Positions 1-22,530 of a stretch of DNA of 22,530 nt are shown here, in pieces (the stretch's first letter is position 1; every line of letters starts with the position of its first letter). The notes beneath the pieces were generated by a model that saw nothing but the letters and a program-made list of their open reading frames with translations, searched no databases and was not told where the DNA came from. The translations under genes were made by a program, and so were the position numbers. This DNA comes from a virus, in the IMG/VR virus record IMGVR_UViG_3300025759_000767, positions 1-22,530 of that record, one strand, 5' to 3'.

Positions 1-1
1 T

Positions 2-1159
2 AATATCCTCGGCGGTCAGGGTGACCTGCAGGGTAGCCTAGACACTATGTCATCTACTGCAGATACCTATGCAACTCAGATGATGGCTAACCAAGACAAT
101 CTACAAGCTGGACAAGACGAGTTTAAGTCTAGCTTCGACACCTACGTAGATCGTTACGGTCAGGATACGGAACTGGCGCAACAAACTCGCGCAGACCTCG
201 CAACGGCACAGGCTAACCAGACTGATCGTCTGCGTGAGGACTTGGGTAACTTTGCTCAGGCGGCTGCTCAGGGGCAGACCAACTTGGCTCAACAGATTGG
301 TACTCTGGGTACTGGCATTGATACTGGGTTCCAGCAACTAGGTAGTGACGTAGGCACTGGCTTCGCAGAGGCTTCTCTAGCAGACCAGACTGCACAGCAA
401 GCCTTGTCCATTCGCCTCGGTAATGTTCGTGATCTTATTCAGACTACTGCAGACACAATTGGTGTTGAGACTAAGCAGCAATACCAGACACTCGCCAACT
501 CCTTCGATGAGAACGGTAACCTCATTGCCAACGCAATCGACGAGCAGGGTAATACAATTAGCCGTGCTATGGATGACCAAGGCAACGTCATTGAGCGTAA
601 GCTGGATGCTAACGGCAACGAGATTAGTGCAGTGCAGATGAACGTAGGCACTATGCTGGATAATGCGGAGCAGTATGAACGCTCCCTACTCGGACAGATT
701 GACCAACGCTTCGACAGTGCTGAAGCAAATACTAATACAGAGCTACGTGCAATTGCATCTGGCTTCAGCGCACAGGATAAGAAGCTGGATACTCAGGCAC
801 GTGACTTGTCTCGGATTGCTGCAGAGCAGACTGATCTAGACGTTAATATGCGTAACGAGTTCCGCGAGTTGGGTCAGGCATTCGACGACCAAGGTAACCT
901 GATCCAGAACAGCATCTCGGATAATGGTACATCAATTTCACGCGCAGTAGATGATAACGGTAACCTACTGCTAAGAGCCTTCGATGCGGGAGGCAACCGT
1001 ATAGGGGATCAGGTTCTAAACATCAATCAGAGCCTGAATAGACTATCTCAACTAAATATGCGTCAGGGAGCAAACGTATCAATGGGCAACCTAAGCCCAG
1101 CGATGTCAGCCAATACACCTAATACTGGCTTCGCATCGCCTTATGCAACGACAGGATAA
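2..1159 (+). CDS. Virion structural protein with 11-residue repeats, 5' end outside the window
   Basis: An in-frame ATG lies at 47, but the same frame is open without a stop from base 2 and encodes plausible protein (NILGGQGDLQGSLDT) running into it. No Shine-Dalgarno sequence precedes 47, so the gene very probably starts left of the window. From ATG47 there are 370 residues rich in Gln, Asn, Asp and Ala, predicted largely helical. Two blocks of four tandem 11-residue units follow the pattern [FIMLV]D-x-x-GN-x-I-x-x-A: residues 153-196 and 279-322. There is no signal peptide or membrane segment. The stop is 3 bases before the lysozyme ATG. Position at the start of a lysis and virion module suggests a tail or head-associated structural protein; I do not recognise the family and the specific role is inferred only. 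Confidence 0.8.
   Translation, partial: NILGGQGDLQGSLDTMSSTADTYATQMMANQDNLQAGQDEFKSSFDTYVDRYGQDTELAQQTRADLATAQANQTDRLREDLGNFAQAAAQGQTNLAQQIGTLGTGIDTGFQQLGSDVGTGFAEASLADQTAQQALSIRLGNVRDLIQTTADTIGVETKQQYQTLANSFDENGNLIANAIDEQGNTISRAMDDQGNVIERKLDANGNEISAVQMNVGTMLDNAEQYERSLLGQIDQRFDSAEANTNTELRAIASGFSAQDKKLDTQARDLSRIAAEQTDLDVNMRNEFRELGQAFDDQGNLIQNSISDNGTSISRAVDDNGNLLLRAFDAGGNRIGDQVLNINQSLNRLSQLNMRQGANVSMGNLSPAMSANTPNTGFASPYATTG
503..634 (+). repeat. Four tandem 33-bp (11-residue) repeats, block 1
   Basis: The units are FDENGNLIANA, IDEQGNTISRA, MDDQGNVIERK and LDANGNEISAV. Each has an aliphatic or aromatic first residue, Asp second, Gly-Asn at 5-6 and a hydrophobic residue at 8. DNA copies differ at many positions, so the repeat is old and held at the protein level. 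Confidence 0.85.
881..1012 (+). repeat. Four tandem 33-bp (11-residue) repeats, block 2
   Basis: The units are FDDQGNLIQNS, ISDNGTSISRA, VDDNGNLLLRA and FDAGGNRIGDQ. The pattern and unit order resemble block 1, 126 residues earlier: both begin with an F-D-x-x-GNLI unit and have an ISRA ending in the middle. This suggests the whole block was duplicated. Confidence 0.85.
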
Positions 1160-1162
1160 GTA

Positions 1163-1894
1163 ATGCACCCAACCTCAGTATCAAAAGACTGTATTGAACT
1201 CGTTAAGAAGTTTGAAGGATTACACAAGCTAAAGGACGATGGCCTAGTACACGCATATCGCTGCCCCGCTGGAAAGTGGACGCTAGGATATGGCGCAACT
1301 AAGGGTATTCGCTCTGGTATGAAGTGTACCGTGGCAGAGGCAGAGCAGCGTCTAATAGATGATCTTAACGAACACGCAAAGATAGTTAAGAAGTCTGTTA
1401 ACGTGCCACTGACCCAAGGACAGTTCGATGCGCTGACATCCTTCGTATTCAACTTAGGCGGCGGGGCGTTCAGGTCATCAACTTTGCTAAAGCGTCTGAA
1501 CAGCGGAAATTACGACGAATGCCCAGAGCAGATCATGCGCTGGAACAAGGCCAGAGTAGACGGCAAGCTACAGCCCCTTCGTGGGCTTACTCGTCGCCGC
1601 GCTGCAGAGGCAGCAATCTTTAGTCGTGATGCCCAGCTACCCTCCGACGAGGGTGGTCCTGAGATGCCCCAGAAGCCTACGGCAGAGCATCCCAAGCCCC
1701 TAACCAAGTCTAAGACTATGGCAGGTGTAGGACTTGCGGGTGCGGCTACGGGTCTTAATGAGGTAGCAGGTGAGCTACAGGGGCTAGTTCCCTACGCAGA
1801 CAGCCTCAAAACCATCTTCTTAATCTGTGCTATCGGCGGCATCGCCTTGGCAGCATACGCTCGATACAAGGACAATAAAGAAGGTATCCACTGA
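1163..1894 (+). CDS. Endolysin: GH24 (T4-type) lysozyme with C-terminal holin-like membrane module
   Basis: This 243-residue protein should cleave the glycan strands of host peptidoglycan. The lysozyme part is residues 1 to about 155. The KKFEG motif gives the catalytic Glu18, and AYRCPAGKWTLGYG gives Cys34 and Thr40 at the positions of the Asp/Cys and Thr of the Glu-Asp/Cys-Thr triad of this family. The Glu-Cys spacing is longer than in the usual E-x8-C form. FVFNLGGGAF and MRWNKA match later family motifs. A proline-rich linker (about 160-180) leads to a Gly/Ala-rich stretch and a hydrophobic segment (about 216-234, IFLICAIGGIALAAYARY) with a charged tail. This resembles the holin-like C-terminal module I recall on some alphaproteobacterial phage lysozymes. 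AGGATAAG precedes the ATG. The stop overlaps the spanin start (TGATG). Confidence 0.9.
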   Translation: MHPTSVSKDCIELVKKFEGLHKLKDDGLVHAYRCPAGKWTLGYGATKGIRSGMKCTVAEAEQRLIDDLNEHAKIVKKSVNVPLTQGQFDALTSFVFNLGGGAFRSSTLLKRLNSGNYDECPEQIMRWNKARVDGKLQPLRGLTRRRAAEAAIFSRDAQLPSDEGGPEMPQKPTAEHPKPLTKSKTMAGVGLAGAATGLNEVAGELQGLVPYADSLKTIFLICAIGGIALAAYARYKDNKEGIH

Positions 1895-2133: not shown

Positions 2134-2314
2134 GACCAAGCTGGACGTTTATTGTCCACCAATCTCACAATACTCAACAGAATGGAACGAAGAGTTAGCC
2201 ACTGAGCTAGATGCGTTACCTGAAGACTACACGACAATCCCAATGGCAATAGCAGACTACGCAAAGTTGCGGGACCGTATTCGTGCGTGTGAAACAGAGA
2301 AGGGTAAACTATAA
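2069..2314 (+). CDS. Outer-membrane spanin lipoprotein (Rz1-like)
   Basis: This 81-residue protein has a lipoprotein signal peptide with lipobox LTGC, so lipidated Cys16 would be the mature N-terminus. The mature part has two later cysteines and mixed charge rather than the proline-rich form of lambda Rz1. It starts inside the i-spanin gene in a different frame (65-base overlap) and runs past its end. This is the overlapping form of spanin gene pair, between the fully embedded and the separate forms. Its stop overlaps the next ATG (TAATG). Lipobox, partner and position make this a strong call. Confidence 0.88.
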   Translation: MKTIILMIVSLSLTGCAGAVYRTKLDVYCPPISQYSTEWNEELATELDALPEDYTTIPMAIADYAKLRDRIRACETEKGKL

Positions 2315-4773
2315 TGGGCTTTTGGTCAGATACATTTGGCGGTGGCAATAGCTTTACTGAGAGCGTAGCTAATACGTTTACCCCTAATGATGGTGCTTCA
2401 TACGTAGGCGGTACACTTACCTACGACTCAGGTAGTAATGCTGGTAAAGTAGTTGAAAAAAACAGCTCTGGCGGTTATGGGAGTGATAACTCTGGCAAGG
2501 CCGTCTACTCAGGTTCGGCTAATAGTGAGAGTACTAATTCTGAGAACATAACATCCAGCGGTACAAATGAAGACTTTGTACCAGCGGGTTCGGCTCCATC
2601 TGGTATTTCTAAACTTCTAGGATTTGCCTCGCCAGTAGGTATCATTGGTACAATCTCTGGATGGGCAAACAACCTAGACCCAGAGGAAGACATTAAGAAA
2701 GGTTCCGTAGTAGATGGTCGCCAAGTCTACAATAACGGGGAGATGTCCTACTCATATAACTTCTTGGGACTGCCCTACGAAGTCAAAGTCGTAGACATTA
2801 ACGGTGAGCAGAAGGTCATGGATTCTCTGAAAGAGGATGCCAATGGACTATTTCCCGGTATGGAAGGCTACGACCAGTCCACCAGTAAATACAAGATCAT
2901 GGCTGCAGAGCAACGTGCGCAGGGTAATGACGACGATGCAGACCGCATTCTACAGGAAGAGCAGGACAACTCACAGCCGTCAGATGGCGGCTCTGGGGAT
3001 ACTACTAACATAGATCAGATTGTGGAGATGGCTAAGGCTGCAGGTCTTGTGACAAATGCTGCAGAAGCAAACGCCATCATCGCAGACCCTATGAAGTTCC
3101 TCGAAGACCGTGGAATGAAGTTGTCTGACTTGATCCCTACCCTAGACGCTGACGCTGAGGGTACGAACATTGATCCTAATGACCCTAACTACTCGCTCGG
3201 TGATAATGAGGGCTACGACCCTAATACCGTAGCCAACGAAGACATAGCGACTGTAGACGATGTAGAGGGTAAGACTGGTACTACCTACGATCCAGAAATG
3301 GCTAATCTCACAGACAATGAGATGGTGGACCCAGTCACAGGTGAGATCAGAGATGAGAACTTAGTAGACGCGGATAAGTACACTATTGACGTTACTGGTG
3401 CCGCTACTGGCGTTAATGCAGATGGCACTGCCAACGAACTGGGTATTGCACTCAACGACTGGGCTAACGTAGACCTCTCCAAAGTCATCGACACCAGTAC
3501 TACTGCAGGTAAGCTACTGGCTGATAAGCTGGTACGCGAAGGTAAAGAGTTTGTAGATGCCAAGACATCCATAGTCTGGCAGATGAAGACTATTGCGGCT
3601 GAATTTAAAGACGCTAACGGTAATCCAATTATCCCACCTTGGGCGCAAGCGGTTAACCGCGATGTCATGCGTTCCATTAGCTTCAACGGTATCTCAGGTA
3701 CGGCGGCAACCGCTGCAATGTCTAATGCTATTATGGAATCTATGATGGGAGTAGCTGAGAAGGAAGCCACCTTCTTCCAGACACTGACTGTAGAGAACCT
3801 GAACAATAAGCAGGAAGCCATTATCAATAAGGCCAAGGTCTTGTCACAGATTGAGTTGGCTAACTTGGATGTACGCTCACAAGCAGCCGTGCAGAATGCC
3901 AAGGCTTTCCTAGAGATGGACCTGACCAACCTGTCTAATGAGCAACAGGCAGAAGTAATTAACAAGCAAGCACTCGTTCAGGCATTGTTTGATAACACTA
4001 ATGCTACCAACGTAGCTCGTAGGTTCGGCGCAGAAGTCGCCAACGATATGCAGAAGTTCTATGATGAACTTGCTGTGAATATTCAGCGGCACAATACCTC
4101 TGAGATTAACGCACTACTGAAGTTCAATGCTGGCGAGATCAATGACGCTGCACAGTTTAACGCAGACATCCGCAATGACCGCCAGAAGTTTGTAGCTGAG
4201 ATGCAGTACCAGATCGACTTGGCAAATGCTAAGTGGCGACAGACTGTAGAGACTACTACCTTCCAAGCTGAGTTCGATGCGTACACTACTGACGTTAAGT
4301 CTGCCCTAGACCTCACCTCAGAGCAGCAAGCCGAGTTGTGGGACTACGCAGACAACCTGTTAGACTACATCTGGAAGACATCCGACAATGATCAAGAGCG
4401 TGAACTACGTCTACTAATAGCGCAGATGCAAGCTCAGTCTGGGCAGAAGGGCGGTAGCGGATTTATGGAAGGGCTACTGACAATTGGTGGCGCATTCCTA
4501 GGCTCTAGCTCAGGTTCTAAGTGGGCTGTGGACTTCCTGAAGGGTCTATCTGATGTACGCCTGAAAGAGAACATCCAGCACTACGATACGTTGAAGGGTG
4601 TTAACTTCTACACTTGGGACTGGAATGAAGAAGGTAAGCGCATTGGCGCAGATAAATACCCGACATTCGGCGTACTAGCCCAAGAAGTACAGAAAACCCA
4701 CCCAGAGGCCGTCATAGAAGGTGAACATGGATACCTCATGGTTAATTACGGGATGATAAGCAATGACGTTTGA
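2314..4773 (+). CDS. Large helical virion protein with C-terminal S74 intramolecular chaperone domain
   Basis: This is an 819-residue protein. The N-terminal third is Gly/Ser/Asn-rich and low in complexity. Residues from about 460 to 700 are long Ala/Gln/Asn-rich helices, likely trimeric coiled coil. A Gly-rich hydrophobic stretch (FMEGLLTIGGAFLGSSSGS) precedes the last 74 residues, which begin SDVRLKEN (Ser746) and include FGVLAQEVQKTHPEAV. This is the Peptidase_S74 / chaperone-of-endosialidase domain, which helps trimerise phage spikes and fibres and then cuts itself off just before the conserved Ser. Such domains are usual on tail spikes and fibres, so a tail-associated role is likely; the rest of the protein is not recognised. 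The stop overlaps the next gene by 11 bases. Confidence 0.8.
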   Translation: MGFWSDTFGGGNSFTESVANTFTPNDGASYVGGTLTYDSGSNAGKVVEKNSSGGYGSDNSGKAVYSGSANSESTNSENITSSGTNEDFVPAGSAPSGISKLLGFASPVGIIGTISGWANNLDPEEDIKKGSVVDGRQVYNNGEMSYSYNFLGLPYEVKVVDINGEQKVMDSLKEDANGLFPGMEGYDQSTSKYKIMAAEQRAQGNDDDADRILQEEQDNSQPSDGGSGDTTNIDQIVEMAKAAGLVTNAAEANAIIADPMKFLEDRGMKLSDLIPTLDADAEGTNIDPNDPNYSLGDNEGYDPNTVANEDIATVDDVEGKTGTTYDPEMANLTDNEMVDPVTGEIRDENLVDADKYTIDVTGAATGVNADGTANELGIALNDWANVDLSKVIDTSTTAGKLLADKLVREGKEFVDAKTSIVWQMKTIAAEFKDANGNPIIPPWAQAVNRDVMRSISFNGISGTAATAAMSNAIMESMMGVAEKEATFFQTLTVENLNNKQEAIINKAKVLSQIELANLDVRSQAAVQNAKAFLEMDLTNLSNEQQAEVINKQALVQALFDNTNATNVARRFGAEVANDMQKFYDELAVNIQRHNTSEINALLKFNAGEINDAAQFNADIRNDRQKFVAEMQYQIDLANAKWRQTVETTTFQAEFDAYTTDVKSALDLTSEQQAELWDYADNLLDYIWKTSDNDQERELRLLIAQMQAQSGQKGGSGFMEGLLTIGGAFLGSSSGSKWAVDFLKGLSDVRLKENIQHYDTLKGVNFYTWDWNEEGKRIGADKYPTFGVLAQEVQKTHPEAVIEGEHGYLMVNYGMISNDV

Positions 4774-4957: not shown

Positions 4958-5507
4958 TGCTCCAATTCCCGGTGCAAACTATTTGTCAGACACCCGCAAC
5001 TATGCGTGGCACCGACCACCAGATATTGTAGATTATGACGAAGCAGTCAGCTACTTGATTGATAAAATTGATGAGCCAGAGAAGAAGGAACTGGTCTTCG
5101 CTATGCTGGGCATAGACGCTCACATCACTACTATTGTAACTACCATACTCCTACAGGCCGTGAGCAAGGGTAAGATAGGCATAGACCTAGCCATACTCTG
5201 CGCTGGCCCCCTAGCCCGTTACATTGAGATTTCCGCTAAGGACGTAGACATCAAGTATGAGATGGGTATTGAGGACAAGGACCGCGTAGCAATTACACCT
5301 ACCCTACTCAAGATTTCTCTTGGAATGTCTATTGATGATCCAGAGGAACAGGCGACTGGTGATATAGAACAATCTATGGTGCAGGAGGCCGCTAACCGAG
5401 GTCTCATGTCAATGCCTGAACCAAGCGACATGGTGGCTAGTCCTGAAGAGCAAGCGGCTATGCTAGGCGAAGTAACAGAAGAGGAGCCTGAAGATGAGCT
5501 TTCGTAG
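4947..5507 (+). CDS. Conserved-looking virion-module protein, unknown function
   Basis: This 186-residue protein has a folded-looking first part (residues 1-125) with hydrophobic helices (ITTIVTTILLQAVSKGKIGIDLAILCAGPLARYIEISA) and an acidic, Met- and Pro-rich tail. It has no signal peptide; the hydrophobic stretch contains Lys, Asp and Arg, so it is more likely a buried helical core than a membrane anchor. GAGGAG sits 7 bases before ATG4947. It overlaps both neighbours. Its place between a tail-type protein and two giant proteins suggests a structural or assembly role, but I cannot name it. Confidence 0.75.
   Translation: MRLNAPIPGANYLSDTRNYAWHRPPDIVDYDEAVSYLIDKIDEPEKKELVFAMLGIDAHITTIVTTILLQAVSKGKIGIDLAILCAGPLARYIEISAKDVDIKYEMGIEDKDRVAITPTLLKISLGMSIDDPEEQATGDIEQSMVQEAANRGLMSMPEPSDMVASPEEQAAMLGEVTEEEPEDELS
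5478..5498 (+). promoter_or_regulatory. Ribosome binding site, second copy of the junction
   Basis: GAAGAGGAG, then CCT, then GAAGATGAG carries the Shine-Dalgarno sequence and ATG5494 of the 807-residue gene. It differs from the junction at 4931-4951 only in the three central bases. Confidence 0.75.
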
Positions 5508-7917: not shown

Positions 7918-7927
7918 GGTAAATAAT

Positions 7928-10900
7928 ATGGCTGAAGAAAATCCATTTGGCGATCAGGCTGTAGAAGATAACCCCTTTGGAGATGCTGCCGAGGAAGAGC
8001 AACAGACTTCTGGAGAGTTAGACCTAGCCAAAATCCAACAGCGGCGTAACTCTGGAGAGAGCGACGAAGCTATTTTCAATGACATCGTCAGTCAGGCTGG
8101 TACTGCCTTTAACATGGATGGTAAGCCATTCGACTTGGCCCCAGCTATTCAAGATGGTGTCCCACCTACTGCCCTACTAGACTTCATTATGTCTGGTAAT
8201 ACTATTGATACTAGCATTGATAGCGGCGTTAAGGCTGGTGTTAAGGGTGTTGGTACTGCAGCTACAAACCTTCTTGGCCTACCCGTCGATTTAGTTAACA
8301 TGGGGTTAACGTCTGGTGAGAGTTTATTCCGACAGGGAGTAAACAAGCTGGCTAGCATTAATGCTCCCGAAGGCGTGGACGATCCCAACTCCCCTAATTA
8401 TGACCCAGAGTTTTATCTAAGCACAGACCCAAAAGACTTTGTAGTAGGAGGTAATCCCGCGCCTCTGGGCAGTAGTCAAAATATAAGAAATATAGGTAAT
8501 GCGGTTCTTGGCGAGAATACCTACGTCACTAGGGAGAATGTGCCAGAAGAATACCGCGCACAGTTTGGCGTTAGTCGTGTAGTCACTGAAAACCTTGTTC
8601 CAGCCTTTGCTATTTTAAAGACTGCTAAGGCAGGTATTGGCCTTACTAATCCACTTATAAAAGAAGCTGCTCAGAACCCTACTCGCTTTCGTAATATTGA
8701 AGGCGGTGCCACAGCGGGTGCGGCTGGACTGACTGCGTTTATTGAGAAGGCTGGTCTGGGAGATAACCCTTGGGCGCAAATGGGAGCAGAGTTCTTAGGT
8801 GCGTTAGTAGGCGGTAATGCTGCCTCTGCCACTTCTAGAGTTGGTGGAATTGCAGACGCTACCAGTAAGACACTAGAAGATTTAGTAGCTGGCTTCAGCG
8901 ATGGGGCCGCTCGTAAGGGTGCAGTCAATGACATACTACTAGCTGCGCAGCAACAGCGTAAGGTACTCCTAGATCAAGCTAAGGCGGCTACTGACGCGGG
9001 GGATACTGCCCTAGCAGACCGTCTTACTGAGGCGGCTGACGCACACACTCCAGAGCGTATTATCCAAGACCTAGAGACCTCTCTTGCGCTGGGAGATGCC
9101 AGCCCAGTAGACGGAGTAAACTTACCCGCTGGTACTCTTACCGATAACCCTACACTAGTAGCTATACAGAACGGACTAATTAGTGGTAGCTCTGATAAAG
9201 GTATAAACTTTTCCGCTGCAGTAGCCGAAGAGGTTAATACAGCACTTTCCCAAATTTTGGCTACATCTGAGCGTCTTGCCAGAGCAGGTAACCAGTTCGC
9301 AGCCGATACTCTACGTGAACGCTACTTCCAAAACATATTAGACACACGTATCAAATTGGCACAAGACGAGGCAAATGCTAGGTTAACAAATCTATCACCT
9401 GATATGCGCCAGACTGAGGCTTCTAAAGTCGCCCAGCAAACTCTATTCGAGGCTAGAGCAAATATCATTGAAATGGAAGATTACTTGTATGGACGTATTG
9501 ATGACGGCCTACAAGTAGATGCCTCTAATGTAGATCGAACAATCTCAGAGATGCGCAGGACGCGGCTTCTAGACGGCGAGACTATCGCTGGCGGTGGGCA
9601 ACTAGACGCTGCAATTAATAATTTTGCCATAAAAGCCCGTGAGGGTACGTTATCAGTGGCAGAAGTTCGTAGATTTAGGTCTCGTATGCTGGAAGCTGCC
9701 AGAGAAGCGGCTGATAAGTCTGAGTTTACCAGAGCGGGTATCTTTGACGAGCTTGCCAATGCTTCCGTAGACTCACTAAATGCTATCCCCTACGAAATTG
9801 GTGGTGAAGCTGTAGAAACTGCACGTAAATTTAGCAGTCTAAAGCATGAACGCTTTACTCGCTACTTCAATATGGATGCCCTTAGTACCGTAGGTACAGG
9901 TGGCACTGCCATGCGTCCTGAACAAGTACTAGAAAACGCTCTAGCTGGTACTCCAATTAATCGCGCACAGAACTTATCTGAAATGCGTGGAGCTACAGAG
10001 TTTTCAGACACTATGGGGCCACGGGTCAATGACCTAAAGGAGCGGGAACTTCAGGCAGAGTTCGATAAGTTTGCTAGGGGTATTGGCGCGGAGCCTAATG
10101 ACATTACCATGCCAGCGGAGCTTACTGCCCCAAGCACCACCCTACCCTCTACGAAGACTACGCCCGATCCTCAGAGAATGAGTCCAACTGATCGTCCTGC
10201 AGAGGGTGAACTAAGTCAGGCCCAACAGGCGGCTGAACTACTATTCCGATTTGCTAATAAGATGGAAGCTGATGGTAGAATGGATTTGGCAGAAGAGGCC
10301 AGACGCAGGGCGCAAGCATTCGACCAGTATCGTGGTCCACAGGGAGAAGAATACTTCGATCCCAAAGCTCCCTCACCAGAAGCTGAACCAGTAGACGACT
10401 TCCAGCTAAATGAGGGCGGTGATACTACGTCAGTAGCATTCCCTGATGACACTACTCCTGTAGAGCTTGCCCCTCGTATGTCTAATGCTCAGGAACAGTT
10501 CTTACGAGGTGCGGTCACTAGACTGCGTAATACAGACGGAACTATTGACACAGCTAAACTAGAGAACTTTATGTCTGCTACTGAGAATGCAGACGCGCTA
10601 GAGGGTTTCCCTAATTTTAGAGCGGAACTCACTAGCCTACTAGATGCGCAGAGAACTGCAGACGAAATATTTAAGCAGTTTAGCGCGATAGCAGAGACTG
10701 GTAAGTTACCAGAAGCTATAGGTAAGGTACTCAACTCCAACAAGCCCGTAGACGATTACGTTAAGTTAGCTAACGAGGCTATGGGTGATCAGAATGCGCT
10801 CAGAGACTTGCGCATGGCTACCATCGACACACTATTTGAGGGTGCTAGAGATGCTAATGATAACCCAGACTTCTTCAAGCTAACTACTGAGCTTACTCGA

Positions 10901-13420: not shown

Positions 13421-13431
13421 TGATTTGCTCC

Positions 13432-13872
13432 TCAAACTAAATCTTTTAAGTCAGGGGCTGCGTAATGTGGCCCCTTTAATACCTTTCCGTCTTCCCGATA
13501 GATTGGTTTCCCATCGCTACCCAACTTGCTCATGTTGGATGCGTGGACACGACGAACTGCTTCGTCTAAATCCCAGCCGAATGTGGCTGCGAAACCGTAT
13601 GTTACGTAGACAAGATCAGCTAATTCCTTCAGTAGGTTTTCAGGTGTATTTGCATCTGCTACTTCCTGAAATTCCTCATCCAGAAGATTGAAGCGCAGCA
13701 TATCCTTGTTGCTACCCTTCTCCCAAGTATGGCCCGTAGATTGTCCGTATATACGAGCAAACTGCTCCACCATATTCAGCGGTGTCTTGTTTAGGTAAGT
13801 ATTTGAATCTCTTATTAATTCATTGTCGTGGTCATAATACTCAAATGCCACGATATCATCCTTTGAAATCAT
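13432..13872 (-). CDS. MazG-like nucleotide pyrophosphohydrolase
   Basis: This 146-residue protein has an all-helical core. LLDEEFQEV (Glu66, Glu67, Glu70) and LLKELADLVYV (Glu83, Asp86) form the ExxE/ExxD Mg-binding pair of the MazG/PRA-PH/dCTPase superfamily. The C-terminal part ASNMSKL and GKPI-REDGKVLKGP is typical of phage members. The probable reaction is hydrolysis of a non-canonical or excess (d)NTP to the monophosphate and pyrophosphate. Substrates differ among members, so dCTP, dUTP or (p)ppGpp-related roles cannot be told apart here. AGGAAA precedes the ATG. The start overlaps the DUF3310 gene, and the stop TGA lies within the RNR ribosome binding site, so the two are probably translated together for dNTP supply. 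Confidence 0.85.
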   Translation of the reverse strand: MISKDDIVAFEYYDHDNELIRDSNTYLNKTPLNMVEQFARIYGQSTGHTWEKGSNKDMLRFNLLDEEFQEVADANTPENLLKELADLVYVTYGFAATFGWDLDEAVRRVHASNMSKLGSDGKPIYREDGKVLKGPHYAAPDLKDLV

Positions 13873-16382: not shown

Positions 16383-16408
16383 AACTAATTCCTCAATAGT
16401 GGACTTAC

Positions 16409-16437
16409 ATTATACATTAGTTAAGTGCTTCAATCAA
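16409..16437 (-). promoter_or_regulatory. Sigma70-type promoter upstream of the 272-residue gene
   Basis: Read on the - strand: TTGATT (-35, 16432-16437), a 17-base spacer, and TATAAT (-10, 16409-16414) preceded by TG. The predicted transcript start is about 20 bases before ATG16382. The -35 box overlaps the stop codon of the DNA polymerase gene. The spacer contains AGCACTTAACTAATG, an element shared with two other intergenic spaces. Confidence 0.8.
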
Positions 16438-18584
16438 GCATATTCCTCTTGATCAAGCCAATTTGTCCCACGACTTATTTCTATTTCTAGAGGAACTACT
16501 ATGCTGTAATTAAATCGTTTTTCTGCCTCTTCTCCGACCTTTGTCATCGCCTCTGTGAGTATTTCTTTGACGATTTCTTCTTCATCAGGATGAGTATCGA
16601 CGACGATGCTATCGTGTACCGTGAGTATCAGCTTTGAAATCAGGTCTTTTTCTTTGAATAACCTAAAAGTTCTTATACACGCCAACTGCACTAGGTCTGC
16701 ACTGAAGCCCTGTACTGGGTAGTTCAGTATCTGCGTAGCCTTGGTCACTCGGTTGTTTCGAGTACGTATGACGTTAGGCCAAAAGTACTGGCGACCAGAT
16801 GGTGTCTCGACAGTGCCATTCTTCAGCGCACCTGTCATAAGAGATTGGTGCCACGTGTAGATGCCATCGTAGATTTCATAGAAACGGTCAAAGTATGCCT
16901 TGATATGCTCTGGTTGACCTGCGCCCGTACCCCCAAACAGCGGCTGGAAGCTAGCCCACTTGTGACCCTGCCTCTCTGCCTTACTCACCTCTTCAGGAGA
17001 CTTCTGTAGGCAGATACTCGCAGTCTGTCTGTGAATGTCCTTACCCTCGATGATGTCGGCAATGCCCTGCCCATCACGCGACAACTCACACGCCGTTCTA
17101 AATTCAAGACCTGAGTAGTCACTTTCTAAAAGCAGACCGTTTTCGAACCGACTTACAAAGCACTTACGTACAGGAAATCCTCTCTTAGGCTGGTTCTGCA
17201 AATTTAATGACATACCGCCGCCCGAAGACAGGCGACCAGTAGAGGCGATGCACTGATTAAAGTTTGCGTGGAGAAGACCCGTAGATCGTGTACCTCGTTT
17301 GATACCTGCGACGAAACTATCTAGGTAGACAGACACGGCACTCAGGCGAGAAAGTTTCGTGAGAAATTCTACGGCAATATCTTTATTTTTGCGCTCTGCC
17401 TGACGTATCAGTGACTGGATAGTCTCCTTATCGGTCTTAAATCCGTTGATACTAGCGTCATAGGGTGAGCTTGGAGATAACTTCAGCCCTGCTACTTCCC
17501 CAGTAGATACGTAAATAGCACCTACACCCTTACACGGCTTGCATTTAGTACGGTTTTTGTAGGGGTCACCTTGGATACGATACTTCTTACCATTCTTCTG
17601 TCGAGTGATCTGCTTGTATTGCTGAATGGAGCCTATGCCATTACAGTCTCTGCACTTGTGAGCAGTCTTACGGAATACAACTCTAGTAGTTGCGCGAACA
17701 GCATCCACAAACTGATTGGTACTCATATAAGGTGGTCTGAGAGGTTTGCCCTCATCGTCTGTGAATATGTTAAACGTCTGTCGGTGTATGTCCTTGTCTA
17801 TTACTTCACGTGAGTAGATGACTTTGGTCATGTGGATACCGCTGTTAAAGTTTACTGGCTCGTCGCCCATAACCATTTCAGCGATTTCTCTCAGCCGCTT
17901 CTCCAGTTCTACCTTCTCGGCTTCAAACTCCTTTTCCACCTCTAGTAGAGCGTCCATGTCTATCTTCACGCCATTCATTTCTATTTCGCATAGAAACATC
18001 AGCATCTCATTCATAAATGGGATTACTTTCTTTAGGCTCTGATTGTGTTCACGCTCGAAGATTTCTTGCTGCGCGAGGTATAGCTCCCCAGTGGCTCTGA
18101 CATCGGCCTCGGCATACTCTATTACCGTATCTAGTGGCATTGCCTCGAAGCCTGTACCACTCTTAAACAACTCATCAATCAGGTCTGATTTCTTGATGCT
18201 CTCAGTCTTACGTCTGATGGCACTGTCCTTCAGCGACAGACCTCTGTTCTGCCCCTTGGCTAGTAAGTACTCTGCTATCATCGTGTCGAATACTTGCGCA
18301 GGTATGTCGAAGCCCATTTCCTGTAGCCACTCTACATCAAACTTTGCGTTGTGGCAGATAAGCAGGTCAGCTTCTGCGAGGTGTTCTCTTAGTTGATCTA
18401 TGCCGTCAGGATATGGCTTCTCGTTGTGATACCATACGTCATTATGTACGTCCTCTACTGTCGTGTCAGACAACCAGCCGTAGTGGGCCGATACACATCT
18501 GTTATTTGGGTTCTTCGGGCTGTTATCTATGCGCCCTTCTATACGCTCGACGGTGGTCTCTAAGTCTAGTACTAGTTTCTTCAA
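16434..18584 (-). CDS. polA: Family A DNA polymerase with 3'-5' exonuclease and inserted DnaJ-like zinc module
   Basis: This 716-residue replicative polymerase starts with TTG, supported by GGGGAG 8 bases upstream; no in-frame ATG lies nearby. Exonuclease motifs are LDLETT (Asp7, Glu9), CHNAKFD (Asn79, Asp83) and YAEAD (Tyr157, Asp161). Residues 311-355 hold two CxxCxGxG units (CRDCNGIG and CKPCKGVG) about 33 residues apart, as in DnaJ zinc fingers. Polymerase motif A is DYSGLEF (Asp489), motif B R538-QGH-K542-WAS-F546, and motif C VHDS (His657, Asp658). Phe546 aligns with E. coli Pol I Phe762. Motif C has Ser where HDE is usual. The zinc insertion is the unusual feature reported for phage HMO-2011. 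Its start overlaps the stop of a 49-residue ORF, suggesting coupled translation. Confidence 0.95.
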   Translation of the reverse strand: MKKLVLDLETTVERIEGRIDNSPKNPNNRCVSAHYGWLSDTTVEDVHNDVWYHNEKPYPDGIDQLREHLAEADLLICHNAKFDVEWLQEMGFDIPAQVFDTMIAEYLLAKGQNRGLSLKDSAIRRKTESIKKSDLIDELFKSGTGFEAMPLDTVIEYAEADVRATGELYLAQQEIFEREHNQSLKKVIPFMNEMLMFLCEIEMNGVKIDMDALLEVEKEFEAEKVELEKRLREIAEMVMGDEPVNFNSGIHMTKVIYSREVIDKDIHRQTFNIFTDDEGKPLRPPYMSTNQFVDAVRATTRVVFRKTAHKCRDCNGIGSIQQYKQITRQKNGKKYRIQGDPYKNRTKCKPCKGVGAIYVSTGEVAGLKLSPSSPYDASINGFKTDKETIQSLIRQAERKNKDIAVEFLTKLSRLSAVSVYLDSFVAGIKRGTRSTGLLHANFNQCIASTGRLSSGGGMSLNLQNQPKRGFPVRKCFVSRFENGLLLESDYSGLEFRTACELSRDGQGIADIIEGKDIHRQTASICLQKSPEEVSKAERQGHKWASFQPLFGGTGAGQPEHIKAYFDRFYEIYDGIYTWHQSLMTGALKNGTVETPSGRQYFWPNVIRTRNNRVTKATQILNYPVQGFSADLVQLACIRTFRLFKEKDLISKLILTVHDSIVVDTHPDEEEIVKEILTEAMTKVGEEAEKRFNYSIVVPLEIEISRGTNWLDQEEYA

Positions 18585-18730
18585 AAGTCTGGCTCCCCAT
18601 GCTCGTCAAAGGTAGGCCGTCTATATTCTTGCACTCTCGCGGCTACCTCTTGTGGTTTTTTCTCAGCCATCACACCAAATTGTCGTACCTGTAGTTCAAT
18701 GTGTGGCGGTAATCTGGCTTCACACTTCAT
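18581..18730 (-). CDS. Small ORF between helicase and polymerase, unknown
   Basis: This 49-residue ORF fills the only gap between helicase and polymerase and overlaps both: its ATG (18730) lies inside the helicase end (11 bases) and its stop TGA overlaps the polymerase TTG start (TTTTGA). The sequence is charged, with a likely helix (MAEKKPQEVAARVQEYRRP) and an acidic end (FDEHGEPDF). There is no strong Shine-Dalgarno sequence at the first ATG; an internal ATG at codon 21 is also possible. Exact tiling of the gap supports a real gene. Function is unknown; it may act mainly to couple polymerase translation to the helicase message. Confidence 0.6.
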   Translation of the reverse strand: MKCEARLPPHIELQVRQFGVMAEKKPQEVAARVQEYRRPTFDEHGEPDF

Positions 18731-19937
18731 AGCGCGAAGTCTTATGGTCTAGCTGACACATGACTGTGCCGTGCCACCCTGAGATTTTATTCTTCATCAC
18801 CGTAATCCAGCGAGAAGGATCGTCGGGGTTTTCCTTGTCATCCATCTTACCTAAGCCTATTAAGATGTCGCTCTCGGCTACCTTACCCACCTTACTACCT
18901 TCCAGCATTGTTGGCGTGAGGCGTGTCTTACCTTCAGCTTCGGCAGATGCTTGTGAAAGACCTATTAAGGCCACGTTATGCTTCTTGGCTAATTCACGTA
19001 GGCGGTAGTACAATTCTCTCAGGCGTTCATGCCCAGAGTTAAATGTCTGCGTGAGTGCGATCTTGTCTGCCATATCCACGATTACGACATCAAATTTTTG
19101 TTGGCTCAGGAAGGCATCGAGTTGCTGTATATCCCAGCCCTGACTATCTGCGAAGATAAGACGGTCCCTAATAGCTGCATACCGTGCGGCAGCGGCCTGT
19201 GGCTCGAAGTTCATCTCCTCTTTGGTCATACCAGTGAACGCTTGCATGGCACGTAGCTTAGTGCGCTTACCCACCTCTTCGTTGGCTATGTAACCAACCT
19301 TGGCACCTTGCTGGCAGAAGCCGTCTGGGGCAGCGCATAGGCTAATAGCAAATGCCGTCTTGCCTACGTTAGAGTATGCTGCAATGACACCGAACTCTCC
19401 GCGCCCAATGCCATATACATTTCTACTCAGGGTCTCGATGTTAAACTTAAATCTATTGTCGTCTGATACAGTAGCTAATAGCTCGTAGATATCGTCTGTG
19501 ACTATGTAGTCATTAAAGTTATCTGGTAGGTATCCATCTGATACACGGTCCAAAAGAGTATTCAGCTTGTCCATTGCAGAGGCATCACCCTCAGACATTG
19601 ATATACCTAGCTGGGCAATATCTAAACCAATGTGCTGCCGCCAGAGTGTCTCGATGACATCACTAGCTACGGCACTGTCTATGTCATCAGCATTGGAAAT
19701 AGAATTTACTAGGTCTTCAATCTCAGCCGACCACGAACCCGTCGATGTAGGATTTTTAGACTTCCAGTAAGTAAATAGTTCAAGAGGCGTAATGTCCTTC
19801 TCAAACTTATCGTGCATCGAGATAATTGTCTCGAATACATCTTTCATAGTCTCGTCGAACAGTGATGCTCGAAGTTTTGCCTTATTTTCCTCATAGAATG
19901 AGTGGTTAAGGCAGCTTTTAAGAAGTGATTGGTCCAT
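18720..19937 (-). CDS. DnaB-type replicative helicase
   Basis: This 405-residue protein has an N-terminal helical domain (1-160) and a RecA-like C-terminal domain. AYSNVGKT (187-194) is the Walker A motif with Lys193. ANEE (218-221) holds the catalytic Glu. DVVIVDMAD (283-291) is Walker B with Asp288, and IGLSQAS (325-331) is the motif-3 Gln. LEGSKVGKVAESDILIGL matches the late DnaB/RAD55-like motif. It would unwind the fork as a hexamer with the primase encoded upstream. The first Gly of Walker A is Ala here. The ATG follows the shared AGCACT element and a terminator, so this is probably the start of a transcription unit. No strong Shine-Dalgarno sequence is seen (GAAG close to the ATG). Confidence 0.9.
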   Translation of the reverse strand: MDQSLLKSCLNHSFYEENKAKLRASLFDETMKDVFETIISMHDKFEKDITPLELFTYWKSKNPTSTGSWSAEIEDLVNSISNADDIDSAVASDVIETLWRQHIGLDIAQLGISMSEGDASAMDKLNTLLDRVSDGYLPDNFNDYIVTDDIYELLATVSDDNRFKFNIETLSRNVYGIGRGEFGVIAAYSNVGKTAFAISLCAAPDGFCQQGAKVGYIANEEVGKRTKLRAMQAFTGMTKEEMNFEPQAAAARYAAIRDRLIFADSQGWDIQQLDAFLSQQKFDVVIVDMADKIALTQTFNSGHERLRELYYRLRELAKKHNVALIGLSQASAEAEGKTRLTPTMLEGSKVGKVAESDILIGLGKMDDKENPDDPSRWITVMKNKISGWHGTVMCQLDHKTSRYEV

Positions 19938-19939
19938 TC

Positions 19940-19990
19940 TTCGCTATCCATTAACAATTAATAGAGTGCTATAGTAGACCAATTAGCGAA
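19940..19990 (-). promoter_or_regulatory. Regulatory leader of the helicase operon
   Basis: This space between the terminator at 19999 and the helicase ATG contains AGCACTCTATTAATTG (19955-19970, - strand), matching elements upstream of the 272-residue gene and the primase. It also has the small dyad ATTAA-TTG-TTAAT, and is bounded by a perfect 7-bp inverted repeat TTCGCTA (19940-19946) / TAGCGAA (19984-19990). No clean -35/-10 pair is seen. It is probably a promoter or operator, but which is undecided. Confidence 0.45.
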
Positions 19991-19991
19991 A

Positions 19992-20022
19992 TAAAAAAAG
20001 CCCCAACTTTGCAGAAGGGGCT
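19992..20022 (-). terminator. Rho-independent terminator after the 68-residue gene
   Basis: On the - strand AGCCCC, a 12-base loop and GGGGCT are followed by seven T residues (19992-19998, with the end of the stem). It lies 25 bases beyond the stop of the 68-residue ORF and separates it from the helicase unit. Confidence 0.85.
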
Positions 20023-20047
20023 AATTAGTTTGATTACGTTAGTAGTA

Positions 20048-20254
20048 CTAGTTGGCTCTGAATTTCATTTTACTCAGGTCTACAGAACCAGCCTCACCTC
20101 GGCGTTCTCGAAGCTCACACTGATACGTAATTACCCGTGGGTTCTTTTCACAGTATTCACGTATCAGCTTCTCTAGTGCTTCTTCTTCAGCAGCGGCTTC
20201 TCGGAAGCCCCCATCAATTTCTAGATCGATTATAGCTATTCCTCTAGCTTTCAT
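20048..20254 (-). CDS. Small protein, unknown function
   Basis: This 68-residue protein begins MKARGIAIIDLEIDGG, a beta-like segment, followed by a helix rich in Glu and Ala (FREAAAEEEALEKLIREYCEK) and a second strand (PRVITYQCELRERRG), ending KMKFRAN. AAAGGAAT is placed 6-9 bases before the ATG. A strong terminator follows it. The beta-helix-beta layout is compatible with a small regulator, but no family is recognised. It is preceded by up to 250 bases with only a doubtful ORF. Confidence 0.7.
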   Translation of the reverse strand: MKARGIAIIDLEIDGGFREAAAEEEALEKLIREYCEKNPRVITYQCELRERRGEAGSVDLSKMKFRAN

Positions 20255-20342
20255 TATACCATTCCTTTAACTTTAACGTCTGTACTGGTGGCCTAGACGG
20301 TGTTTTTGTTAACCCAGTTGTCCTCTGGATAGTGATTGGCAG
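20255..20342. other. Non-coding space, nothing clear
   Basis: There is no ORF, promoter pair or stem-loop that I can support in these 88 bases, apart from the ribosome binding site of the 68-residue gene at the left edge. If the ORF at 20343-20543 is not real, the empty space extends to 20503. Confidence 0.6.
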
Positions 20343-20543
20343 CTATAAGGAATGAATCGGAGGACCGCTAGGGGGATTCTGTAATGACACCACATAAGTC
20401 ATCATTTTTATAGGACGCTCTGCCGCCTTAGTACGTGATCTTCTGCGATTTACTCTAGACCTATTACCCCCACAAGTAATAAAGGCCCACGTAAATACGC
20501 TACTTACCGTAGTAAATTGTTTATCTGTTCTGTAGTGAGCCAT
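20343..20543 (-). CDS. Doubtful small basic ORF overlapping the primase end
   Basis: This 66-residue ORF starts 40 bases inside the primase 3' end, with GAGAAAG 6 bases before the ATG, and fills most of the space to the next gene. It has an Arg-rich centre (NRSRVNRRRSRTKAAERP) and a Pro-rich end. Against it: the long out-of-frame overlap, lack of any recognised family, and two GANTC sites within it, a motif almost absent from the certain genes. It could be a small DNA- or RNA-binding protein or simply an open stretch of non-coding DNA. Confidence 0.35.
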   Translation of the reverse strand: MAHYRTDKQFTTVSSVFTWAFITCGGNRSRVNRRRSRTKAAERPIKMMTYVVSLQNPPSGPPIHSL

Positions 20544-21259
20544 TTAAGGTCTTTCTCAGTTAGTCGCAGCTTTAGGGTCTTATCTTTACTTCTGATTGTA
20601 TTGAGTGCCTTAGTGTTCGCGTCTTTGTCAAGAACTAAATACCTATTAGTGTAACAACTAATTGACTGCTTTATTGTGGAAGTCAAGTTTGTACCTAGCA
20701 TTGCCACACCTACGTAGCCGTCTAGTCTACTCACACTACAGGCTGATGGTATGTCTTCTACGAGTACGGCATCAGTTCCCTCACCTACGTGTACACCGCC
20801 TTCGATGACACCATAAGTCATCCACTTAGGTCCATAGGGTTTCAGGCATCTACCCACTGCACCTCTATCTGCGTAGAACATTACTCGGTCTTCGGCTGGT
20901 GCGTAGCGTACATCTATCCATCCGTTCTGGTAAGCCTCTAGACTATTCACAGACTTCAGGAAGTCGATTGCTGGTTTATGGTTATCTACTGAAGTAGTTA
21001 TCTCTGGTAATGGTTTAACCTTAGCAGTCGTCTTAGATACTTTTGCTAGATAGTCTTTGGAAGACTGAAGAGATCGTCTACCTTGGTATATGCCTCTTCC
21101 ATTACAGCTTGCTCTATAACAGAACCACTTTAGTTGACCATCTATTTTAGAGACTGCTAGCTTCTTATAACCACCACAGAAAGGGCATTGGATTACTATA
21201 GTATCCCCCTCTCTGATATTAATAGTCTTTACTATTTCTAACTGCTCTAAGTAGGTCAT
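20504..21259 (-). CDS. DNA primase (zinc finger plus TOPRIM)
   Basis: This 251-residue protein has an N-terminal zinc-binding domain with CPFC (Cys25, Cys28) and CYRASC (Cys47, Cys52). The TOPRIM domain has VLVEDIPSA with catalytic Glu168 and YLVLDKDAN with Asp211 and Asp213, the DxD metal pair. It would make RNA primers for the phage replisome with the separately encoded DnaB-type helicase, unlike T7, where the two are fused. It is shorter than cellular DnaG (about 580) because it lacks the helicase-interaction domain. No strong Shine-Dalgarno sequence is visible before the ATG. The leader contains a short hairpin (21279-21298: CTG-C-CCCT, TCGC loop, AGGG-A-CAG) and the shared AGCACT element. 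Confidence 0.9.
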   Translation of the reverse strand: MTYLEQLEIVKTINIREGDTIVIQCPFCGGYKKLAVSKIDGQLKWFCYRASCNGRGIYQGRRSLQSSKDYLAKVSKTTAKVKPLPEITTSVDNHKPAIDFLKSVNSLEAYQNGWIDVRYAPAEDRVMFYADRGAVGRCLKPYGPKWMTYGVIEGGVHVGEGTDAVLVEDIPSACSVSRLDGYVGVAMLGTNLTSTIKQSISCYTNRYLVLDKDANTKALNTIRSKDKTLKLRLTEKDLKWLTTEQINNLLR

Positions 21260-21415: not shown

Positions 21416-21460
21416 CTGTTAATCAATTGGTCGTAGGTTCGATCCCTACCGCCGGAGCCA
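21416..21460 (+). other. attP: Candidate attP: 3' half of a tRNA-Asn(GUU) gene
   Basis: This 45-base segment reads as the end of a tRNA-Asn gene: anticodon loop CTGTTAA (21416-21422, anticodon GUU), stem strand TCAAT, variable loop TGGTC, T arm GTAGG-TTCGATC-CCTAC (21433-21449), acceptor strand CGCCGGA (21450-21456), discriminator G and CCA. The 5' half is absent: no TCCGGCG acceptor strand or D arm lies upstream, and the bases before 21416 do not complete the anticodon stem. A tRNA 3' half in a phage non-coding segment is the usual form of an attP core for a tyrosine integrase. No integrase is in the window. Confidence 0.8.
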
Positions 21461-21497: not shown

Positions 21498-21551
21498 GTG
21501 TAAGTGGCATGGCAGATAGCTTTGTGGCAGTCTGCCATTTTTGCCACTCAC
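21498..21551. other. Strong composite stem-loop next to the attP-like core
   Basis: GTG, AGTGGCA (21503-21509) and TGGCAGA (21510-21516) on the left pair with TCTGCCA (21531-21537), TGCCACT (21542-21548) and CAC (21549-21551) on the right, with a 2-base bulge, a 4-T bulge and a 14-base loop. TGGCA occurs three times directly and TGCCA twice. It could be a structured RNA, a terminator of - strand transcription after the 45-residue ORF, or a protein-binding site of the attachment region. Confidence 0.55.
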
Positions 21552-21558
21552 GTTATTA

Positions 21559-21696
21559 TTATTTGACCGACTCAATCTCCAGTCTGGATTCTGTTAGTCT
21601 GGGATTGTTGATTTCTTTATCAGCCACTGACTTAGTTGTGTTCTTGTAGGCGAACACTGCGCCAGTCTTCTTGCATATATATTTGATCTTAACCAT
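21559..21696 (-). CDS. Small basic ORF downstream of the 70-residue gene, unknown
   Basis: This 45-residue ORF begins MVKIKYICKKTGAVFAYKNT and ends LEIESVK. Its ATG overlaps the stop of the 70-residue gene (ATGGTTAA) with GAGAG upstream, so coupled translation is plausible. The first part looks like a short beta-hairpin with a single Cys, a shape common in tiny phage proteins. It contains two of the rare GANTC sites. No family is recognised. Confidence 0.55.
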   Translation of the reverse strand: MVKIKYICKKTGAVFAYKNTTKSVADKEINNPRLTESRLEIESVK

Positions 21697-21901
21697 CGGA
21701 CATCTCTCGAATGTGATCTTCTATGAAGTCATAGACTATTTGCATATCCAGCTTGGCGGCTGCGCAGTAGAGTACCAGCTTCAAGCCTTCCTCTGTCAGT
21801 AAGTTTCTGCACTTGTCGTCCATGTGAAACTGATACGTAGCGGAACCGTCTTCGTGTTCTTCTACAGTCTCTACTCCGATTATTCCTGCGTCAGTATTCA
21901 T
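21689..21901 (-). CDS. Small protein, unknown function
   Basis: This 70-residue protein overlaps the ThyX stop by ATGA and is therefore probably translated with it. Predicted layout: strands GIIGVETVEEHEDGSATYQFHMD, then helices LLTEEGLKLVLYCAAAKLDMQIVYDFIEDHI. It resembles small hypothetical proteins often seen in phage replication regions, but I cannot name a family. Confidence 0.75.
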   Translation of the reverse strand: MNTDAGIIGVETVEEHEDGSATYQFHMDDKCRNLLTEEGLKLVLYCAAAKLDMQIVYDFIEDHIREMSDG

Positions 21902-22530
21902 TCTTCATACATCCTCAGTGCTTCCCACGAGACAGGGTACAGCCTCATCATCTCGTCATTGATCTGATCGGCTACTAGACGGCTTTCATATTGTGTGACG
22001 GGCTTACAGCGTAGGCTACACATATCAGCAAAGGCATCCAAGCTACCTGACCAGTACCACTCAGTCATCATGCTCTGTGGCAGTACCATACGTGCTTGCT
22101 CTGGGGCTACACCTTGTTCAAGCATTGCTTCATAAACATCAATGCAAATGTCCTCTGCACGGTAGCTGCAGTGGTCAGGGAGATATACATGATAAGGGTC
22201 AAACTCCACGACACCATCACTGCCCTGCTTCTTATCCTGACTACGCCCACGCCATACATCAGGTGAGTAGAACTCAGGCTCTTCATCAACGTAGCGGCGG
22301 CTAATCTCATTCCAACGTAGAAACTTATGCTTAACTAGCTGACGTGCTACAAACACAGGTGCCTTAACATGGAACGATGCAAAGGCATGACCAAAGGGGC
22401 TAGTATGCTTGTGCTTGGCGAGATACTTGATCAGCTTGGTGTCTTTGTCTGACAGAACCATCTCAAGGTATTCACCTTGTTCGTCCTGTTTTACTGCGCC
22501 TTCCACAAGTTCACTCTTCTTACCGAAGCT
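21898..22530 (-). CDS. thyX: Flavin-dependent thymidylate synthase ThyX, N-terminus outside the window
   Basis: The enzyme makes dTMP from dUMP with FAD, NADPH and methylene-tetrahydrofolate. The reading frame is open to the window edge, and the residues before a possible GTG at 22506 read SFGKKSEL, the conserved ThyX ARVSFGK region, so the real start lies beyond 22530. LAKHKHTSPFGHAFASFHVKAPVFVARQLVKHKFLRWNEISRRY carries the family core in pieces: HTSPFGH, then the signature region where KHK-x4-NEISRRY replaces the usual RHR-x4-NExSxRY. ARMVLPQ and the late LRCKPVTQYESR correspond to the C-terminal substrate-binding helices. The stop overlaps the next gene by ATGA. It belongs with RNR and the MazG-like enzyme in dNTP supply. 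Confidence 0.9.
   Translation of the reverse strand, partial: SFGKKSELVEGAVKQDEQGEYLEMVLSDKDTKLIKYLAKHKHTSPFGHAFASFHVKAPVFVARQLVKHKFLRWNEISRRYVDEEPEFYSPDVWRGRSQDKKQGSDGVVEFDPYHVYLPDHCSYRAEDICIDVYEAMLEQGVAPEQARMVLPQSMMTEWYWSGSLDAFADMCSLRCKPVTQYESRLVADQINDEMMRLYPVSWEALRMYEE

Follow-up and report, generated by a model that had tools for sequence, protein, structure and literature searches.

Methylation of GANTC by CcrM times the host cell cycle. Depletion of this site has been described in about half of 33 pelagiphages, for which past restriction or host range was suggested (PMC9516812). Alphaproteobacterial chromosomes carry GANTC on average at least two-fold below expectation (PMC3973325), and some alphaproteobacterial phages encode GANTC methylases (PMC5537653, PMC7139368). 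Here we analysed a virus contig of 22,530 bases (IMG/VR record IMGVR_UViG_3300025759_000767, taken over its whole length and called the window), in which GANTC, CCWGG and CCGG are avoided and which, judged from its DNA polymerase, is a fragment of an HMO-2011-type roseophage with CRP-738 as nearest isolate. GANTC depletion in pelagiphages and chromosomes has already been published; the window clearly exemplifies something known and does not represent a new phenomenon, but it carries that depletion beyond the pelagiphages into another marine phage group, a dominant one.

The pelagiphages resemble the phages studied here in being marine alphaproteobacterial phages with a depletion split by clade and a host that has a GANTC methylase and no known restriction enzyme; the published work covers SAR11 phages and GANTC, whereas here the phages are HMO-2011-type roseophages, further words are avoided together with GANTC, and chromosomes of likely hosts were measured as well. 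GATC avoidance in phages of Dam/MutH hosts has been tied to mismatch repair, with the forces called unclear (PMC5014478). There, too, the site of the host's solitary regulatory adenine methylase is lost, and MutH and mismatch repair offer a mechanism. We know of no GANTC-directed MutH in Alphaproteobacteria; McClelland in 1984 and Deschavanne and Radman in 1991 are said to be earlier references for GATC avoidance. CRP-738 (PMC9038755) has a polymerase 95.5% identical to that of the window, by eye the same gene order from primase to ribonucleotide reductase (RNR) and an annotated integrase; the main text of its description has no mention of GANTC, restriction or words in methyl-. In mostly non-subscription journals, the parts of the literature covering GANTC together with roseophages or RDJL yielded only a CcrM-like domain annotation, and HMO-2011-type phages are unnamed in titles on GANTC depletion, GANTC avoidance or CcrM in phages among the matches listed.

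Avoided words in the window

GANTC occurs 12 times in the window, at exactly the positions given by a sequence-only reading of this DNA, which had claimed strong genome-wide avoidance of the site. The expected number was 87 from base composition (the reading had put it at about 85), 86.7 and 86 from first- and second-order Markov models and 58 from a maximal-order Markov model, giving observed-to-expected ratios (O/E) of 0.14 (Markov) and 0.21 (maximal order); the Poisson probability of 12 or fewer sites is 2e-23 at 86 expected and 2e-13 at 58 expected. A codon shuffle that kept proteins and pooled codon usage (18 open reading frames, ORFs; 20,721 coding bases; 100 shuffles) left the shortfall strong, with 8 sites observed against a mean of 55.8 (lowest shuffle 43, z = -8.1). 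A null predicting about 12 sites would have undone the claim; the nulls give 55.8–87 instead. We conclude that the GANTC depletion is real and that base composition or codon usage is not its source. All four forms are scarce (GAATC 3, GACTC 3, GAGTC 1, GATTC 5), no site lies between 3741 and 9769, as the reading had noted, and the longest GANTC-free gap is 6.5 kb, from 13805 to 20354. GATC, correctly counted there as 15 in the first 3.3 kb, totals 61 against 78 expected. The word genome-wide had rested on a 22.5 kb fragment; a same-species contig of 48.8 kb, which matches most of the window at ~99% identity (88% in one stretch of 0.76 kb), is also low in the 20 kb without a match to the window (14/68, O/E 0.21).

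The sequence-only reading had named uniqueness to GANTC as support for its claim, but the avoidance proved not to be unique: the shortfall of CCWGG and CCGG equals or exceeds that of GANTC. CCWGG is missing altogether, against 37 expected from the first-order model, 50 from the second-order model and 29.1 from the codon shuffle (z = -6.3), CCGG occurs 4 times against 44 and 33 from the two Markov models (codon shuffle z = -6.6), and CCNGG 3 times against 56. Similar depletion of many unrelated palindromes would also have undone the claim; this holds in part, CCWGG and CCGG being low too, although strong depletion is limited to a few words. Among 32 palindromes of the NNNN and NN-N-NN forms, only CCNGG (0.05), CCGG (0.09) and GANTC (0.14) fell below 0.2, the next-lowest being CATG (0.46); several sites are thus avoided, and palindromes in general are not. 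Moderately low in the codon shuffle were GCNNGC (0.46, z = -6.5) and CGNNCG (0.39, z = -4.7), and several six-base palindromes with ~7–9 expected, such as CAGCTG and GAATTC, were missing from the window. The sites that remain are as follows.

1..22530, no strand: region of GANTC, CCWGG and CCGG avoidance, a fragment of an HMO-2011-type, probably temperate roseophage
2425..2429, no strand: remaining GANTC, inside ORF 2314-4773
2821..2825, no strand: remaining GANTC, inside ORF 2314-4773
2854..2858, no strand: remaining CCNGG, includes CCGG at 2855
3736..3740, no strand: remaining GANTC, inside ORF 2314-4773
4968..4972, no strand: remaining CCNGG, includes CCGG at 4969
9770..9774, no strand: remaining GANTC, inside ORF 7928-11545
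10180..10184, no strand: remaining GANTC, inside ORF 7928-11545
12710..12714, no strand: remaining GANTC, inside the RNR gene, adjoining the CCNGG/CCGG site at 12714
12714..12718, no strand: remaining CCNGG, includes CCGG at 12715
13290..13294, no strand: remaining GANTC, inside the RNR gene
13805..13809, no strand: remaining GANTC, inside the nucleotide pyrophosphohydrolase gene
20354..20358, no strand: remaining GANTC, intergenic by ORF calls; the matching CRP-738 gap has no GANTC
20375..20379, no strand: remaining GANTC, intergenic by ORF calls; the matching CRP-738 gap has no GANTC
21569..21573, no strand: remaining GANTC, in a 45-codon ORF (~21559-21696, minus strand, by eye) not in the gene list
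21587..21591, no strand: remaining GANTC, in the same 45-codon ORF (~21559-21696, minus strand)

All three leftover CCNGG sites thus contain CCGG. The fourth CCGG (21452) sits within a tRNA-derived attachment site, where a match to the host tRNA gene would be required. Retention of GANTC for promoter function was rejected because the matching gap of CRP-738 lacks both of the window's intergenic sites and because GANTC is not enriched between genes in four annotated relatives (7 sites in 12.1 kb of intergenic and 157 in 187.9 kb of coding DNA; ratio 0.69, p = 0.41, not significant). Alphaproteobacterial chromosomes, in contrast, keep GANTC in intergenic DNA (>1.5-fold; PMC3973325).

Kinship, attachment site and inferred host family

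Genes of the window and the probable attachment site are listed here; function assignments are from PHROGs unless noted.

1163..1894, plus strand: endolysin/lysozyme
11678..13435, minus strand: ribonucleotide reductase
16434..18584, minus strand: family A DNA polymerase bearing a pair of zinc-binding CXXCXGXG-type motifs, a hallmark of HMO-2011-type phages
18720..19937, minus strand: DnaB-like replicative helicase
20504..21259, minus strand: DNA primase
21416..21460, plus strand: probable attP core, a 45-base copy of the tRNA-Asn 3' half (T arm to CCA), in the gap between primase and thymidylate synthase
21898..22530, minus strand: thymidylate synthase, open at the window end

Further PHROGs matches were a nucleotide pyrophosphohydrolase, a RusA-like resolvase and an exonuclease. 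Portal, terminase and coat genes were not found among the 18 scanned ORFs of the window; in relatives they lie beyond the part that the window shares. HMO-2011-type phages are marked by a family A DNA polymerase with a partial DnaJ central domain (PMC9038755), and the window polymerase bears both zinc motifs, whose residues C311, C314, G316, G318, C348, C351 and G355 were invariant across 12 polymerases. Identity was 53–57% to CRP-235, CRP-212 and CRP-3. In a quick polymerase tree made without bootstrap (53 rows, including 41 of 80 IMG/VR loci; 46 were at least 7 kb long and 5 of these, with partial polymerases, were omitted), the window was nested in an 8-row clade with CRP-738 (SH-aLRT 100). 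Its closest group is not CRP-738 itself but contigs L013–L015, with polymerases 99% identical, and the first 50 kb of CRP-738 lack the final 35 bases of the att core.

Because it has an attachment site and its relatives have integrases, the phage is probably temperate; the window itself contains no integrase, and if the phage has one it is located outside. Exact copies of the 45-mer occur in 3 of the 385 Alphaproteobacteria sampled, and a fourth genome (G255) has a copy with a single mismatch. Four of the seven exact places read as complete tRNA-Asn genes and three as bare 3' fragments, the pattern that integration would leave. The last 35 bases of the core were present in 20 of the 80 related IMG/VR loci and in none of 11 isolates as far as read. 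By this site the phage would be linked to one alphaproteobacterial family, called the attB family below; that it is Rhodobacteraceae we infer from the isolates' hosts. A prophage of this group in a sampled genome was considered and rejected: nine loci matching the polymerase profile were 35–39% identical and lay in metagenome-assembled genomes and one single-cell genome with mixed labels, and they are probably viral contigs binned with the genomes and carry no host link. Matches to the window polymerase in G025, G157, G334, G255 and G427 were weak (26–29% identity, open frames of 939–995 aa) and are probably those genomes' own Pol I.

CcrM was present in 58 of 61 attB-family genomes, every one of the 58 having a single match at E ≤ 1e-20, and in 43 of 58 genomes of the Alphaproteobacteria at large at E ≤ 1e-30. 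No second CcrM-like methylase was found in the 61 genomes at E ≤ 1e-20, a search that included no model of a GANTC endonuclease. The CcrM of one scanned genome has N6_N4_Mtase and RAMA domains; that of G025 is flanked, by eye, by RNase HII-like and cyclase-like genes, with no endonuclease seen in 4 kb.

Chromosome samples of ~19–100 kb each were taken from 30 genomes (29 of the attB family and G255). GANTC was below expectation in all 30 (O/E 0.21–0.75, median 0.34), and CCWGG ranged from 0.13 to 1.32 (median 0.50). Across 20 of the samples GANTC and CCWGG were the lowest of the tested words, their own sub-words aside, whereas pooled O/E for CCGG, GATC and CGCG was 0.94–1.06. Two of the words avoided in the window are thus also the most avoided in the likely host chromosomes, and the third is phage-specific. 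The GANTC level of the window falls under the host median (P = 2.5e-4), though its difference from the lowest sample is not clear (P = 0.09); CCWGG (0/50) is below every host sample, even the lowest (P = 0.002). The GANTC signal is therefore in large part a host-like trait, intensified, with the phage partly mirroring a known feature of its host, and the CCGG signal is the phage's own. For phages known from metagenomes only, a missing-word profile of this kind can serve as a pointer to their host and their history of restriction.

The observation of the sequence-only reading was thus correct and its interpretation partly so. Long adaptation to a CcrM-bearing alphaproteobacterial host, which it had proposed, is supported by roseophage kinship, the attB family, the near-universal CcrM and the GANTC-poor chromosomes. 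Its alternative, a GANTC-cutting restriction enzyme, is the less probable; no second CcrM-like methylase appeared in the 61 genomes.

Avoided words in related and other phages

Among the relatives, which were 11 HMO-2011-type isolates read over their first 50 kb and the 80 IMG/VR loci, the set of avoided words shifts by clade. Rows of the 53-row tree with O/E below 0.25 numbered 43 of 52 assessable ones for CCWGG, 22 of 50 for CCGG, 24 of 53 for GANTC and 8 of 45 for CGCG. GANTC was graded along the tree, with O/E 0.10–0.46 in the 44-row clade of the window, 0.68 in two adjacent rows and 0.44–0.95 in the other seven. CGCG was zero in CRP-235, CRP-212, CRP-3, CRP-345, CRP-1, CRP-603, CRP-2 and HTVC033P (4–5 expected in the last), and HMO-2011 itself has no GATC in its first 50 kb against 156 expected, despite its alphaproteobacterial host. 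AGCT was 0.11–0.19 in L049, L055, L056, L069 and L091 under the first-order model; at second order 1 of 53 tree rows was below 0.25.

Protection by a phage methylase in place of avoidance was examined and set aside: no PF01555 methylase, the one adenine-methylase family searched, was found in 20 phage records (18 public ones described as complete and 2 IMG/VR contigs). A C5 methylase is encoded by CRP-603; the genes annotated as methylases in CRP-207 and CRP-2 match no Pfam family. A temperate as opposed to lytic life cycle was not supported as a rule, integrase phages being both GANTC-free (HTVC011P, 0/53; HTVC019P, 0/52) and little depleted (CRP-603, 0.95; CRP-2, 0.82); phages without an annotated integrase gave 0.77 (HTVC010P, 25 kb) and 0.94 (HTVC033P, 50 kb).

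Eleven further phage records were read over the first 25 kb of each. GANTC counts against expectation were 9/52 in HTVC008M, 28/75 in SIO1, 33/68 in CRP-4, 43/56 in HTVC010P and 131/148 in DSS3phi2. In RDJL Phi 1 there was no GANTC in the first 25 kb (0/106) and one in the rest (1/164), that is, 1 in 62.7 kb against ~270 expected, while the other six tested words stood at 0.75 or higher; this phage can be cultured and so lends itself to work on the cause of CcrM-site avoidance in phages, and its record annotates a ctrA-named regulator. Phages of gamma- and betaproteobacterial hosts, which we take to be without CcrM, kept GANTC in 3 of 3 cases, a small set (VpV262, 76/86, 0.88; MEP402, 78/63, 1.24; H4/4, 65/58, 1.12), and had no GATC at all (0/100, 0/75 and 0/53, respectively). 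GATC loss is not limited to phages of such hosts, as HMO-2011, HTVC011P (0/48) and HTVC019P (0/57) also lack it. HTVC011P annotates an anti-restriction protein.

A proposed CcrM-linked cost and possible restriction

EcoRII-C matched in 6 of 100 attB-family genomes, two of the matches with internal stops. In G427 a stretch (L214, G427:C23:51001-62871) carries an integrase, a C5 methylase, Vsr, EcoRII with both domains and DUF3800 and ends at tRNA-Asn and the contig end. By its gene content this island appears to be a complete EcoRII-type system at the tRNA-Asn gene that the phage appears to use for integration; we take the specificity of its enzyme to be CCWGG. The endonuclease model RE_LlaMI (CCNGG) matched none of the 100 genomes, but its controls gave no match either.

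We lean, at little better than even confidence, towards a combined cause: a CcrM-linked cost of GANTC together with EcoRII- and HpaII-type restriction of CCWGG and CCGG, the sites having been purged from a probably temperate HMO-2011-type roseophage. The phage DNA would have lost the sites of several host DNA-modifying systems (GANTC for CcrM; CCWGG/CCNGG; CCGG), mostly through synonymous choice. While DNA replicates, its GANTC sites would for a time be unmethylated or hemimethylated, and CcrM and GcrA act on sites in these states; GANTC would thereby be costly in CcrM-bearing cells, and spare sites would be purged from chromosomes and, faster, from phages. CCWGG and CCGG would be avoided since some of the hosts would carry EcoRII-type and HpaII-type enzymes; CCWGG avoidance is most naturally read as a result of restriction, and the loss of both words fits type II restriction. 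The combined cause is favoured by the codon-shuffle shortfall, the kinship with CRP-738 and its clade, the attP 45-mer, CcrM in the attB family, the GANTC- and CCWGG-poor chromosome samples, the GANTC kept by phages of the three non-alphaproteobacterial hosts, the loss of GANTC without that of other tested words in RDJL Phi 1 and the EcoRII-type island of G427. A bolder proposal, which we regard as doubtful, is that the CcrM/GcrA cell-cycle system itself purges GANTC from alphaproteobacterial phages, without restriction or mismatch repair. Were it true, this would be the alphaproteobacterial counterpart of GATC avoidance in Dam hosts, GANTC content would read out the time a phage lineage has spent in CcrM cells, and RDJL Phi 1 would be the cleanest case.

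Several results weigh against the combined cause. The strongest objection, which concerns the CcrM-linked cost, comes from the phages of a single host strain, FZCC0040, in which GANTC varies from 0.15 (CRP-235) to 0.68 (CRP-207); CRP-603 (0.95), HTVC033P (0.94) and DSS3phi2 (0.89) are hardly depleted although CcrM is presumed in their host strains. Not all phages of presumed CcrM hosts avoid GANTC, therefore, and a CcrM host alone does not set its level. Chromosome samples without ccrM overlap those with it in GANTC (0.50–1.02, n = 9, against 0.27–1.16, n = 10, one short negative sample having been dropped), and a second CcrM-like match occurs in 4 of 58 genomes class-wide. HTVC011P and HTVC019P lack GANTC, GATC, CCWGG, GGCC and GCGC together in the first 25 kb; this joint loss, like the near-complete loss of GANTC in RDJL Phi 1, looks restriction-like. 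RE_HpaII endonuclease was found in 0 of 100 attB-family genomes. The CCWGG signal is not peculiar to the attB family, as Vibrio phage VpV262 has 0/48. Chromosomes of five EcoRII-C carriers were not more depleted of CCWGG (median 0.55) than 25 others (0.46; the sixth carrier, G401, a weak match with stops, was left out), and the idea that CCWGG avoidance tracks EcoRII carriage was rejected because the difference runs in the wrong direction.

We rank second, and hold short of probable, an explanation in which all three words, GANTC included, are avoided through type II restriction-modification, a HinfI-like enzyme cutting GANTC and CcrM merely protecting the hosts. The all-or-none, clade-specific loss of CGCG, CCGG, GATC and CCWGG among relatives favours it, as do the loss of GANTC alongside other restriction-type words in HTVC011P and HTVC019P and of nearly all GANTC in RDJL Phi 1, the four relatives' lack of intergenic retention and the presence of a complete EcoRII-type system in the attB family. 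However, the chromosome samples of 30 genomes are GANTC-depleted too, though CcrM should protect them, and the HinfI methylase, presumably kin to CcrM, would have appeared as a second match in the 61 family genomes; its lack there speaks against a common HinfI-type system, with the caveats that a rare system, or a GANTC methylase of other descent, would escape and that second matches do occur in 4 of 58 genomes class-wide. A by-product of codon-pair or oligonucleotide bias taken from the host, arising although selection in the phage leaves the site alone, is favoured by the correlation between pooled host samples and the window over the 32 palindromes (Spearman 0.52); we consider it very improbable, as the maximal-order Markov model and the codon shuffle still expect 58 and 55.8 GANTC, CCGG is low in the phage and not in the hosts, and CCWGG is lower than in the most depleted host sample. 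We give equally little credence to sampling accident, each depleted word having a Poisson P of at most 3e-10, or to mutational decay of methylated sites by 5-methylcytosine deamination in CCWGG and CCGG. Dcm-type enzymes methylate the inner C of CCWGG, and N6-methyladenine in GANTC is not, to our knowledge, mutagenic. Outer-C products of CCWGG are in modest excess (TCAGG 48/28.0, TCTGG 45/36.5), but inner-C products are without clear excess (CTAGG 23/25.9, CTTGG 37/28.4, CCAAG 35/29.1, CCTAG 20/22.7), as are those of CCGG (TCGG 53/50.1, CTGG 116/121.4, CCAG 98/123.3, CCGA 36/39.0); deamination is thus not the obvious cause, the TCAGG excess notwithstanding.

An EcoRII island was present at one of three examined tRNA-Asn sites, the third tRNA-Asn copy of G157 being outside the count. 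In the G025 and G157 stretches, 42 ORFs of at least 180 aa matched seven PADLOC families at 1e-10, none of them restriction-modification, and a Pfam scan of the same ORFs gave no restriction-modification among the matches listed (the best 25 of 60 families). These stretches (L232–L236) are elements of ~28 and ~45 kb lying between tRNA-Asn and a copied 3' fragment; individual ORFs in them gave matches to GTPase-associated domains and to cyclase models of the Pycsar type.

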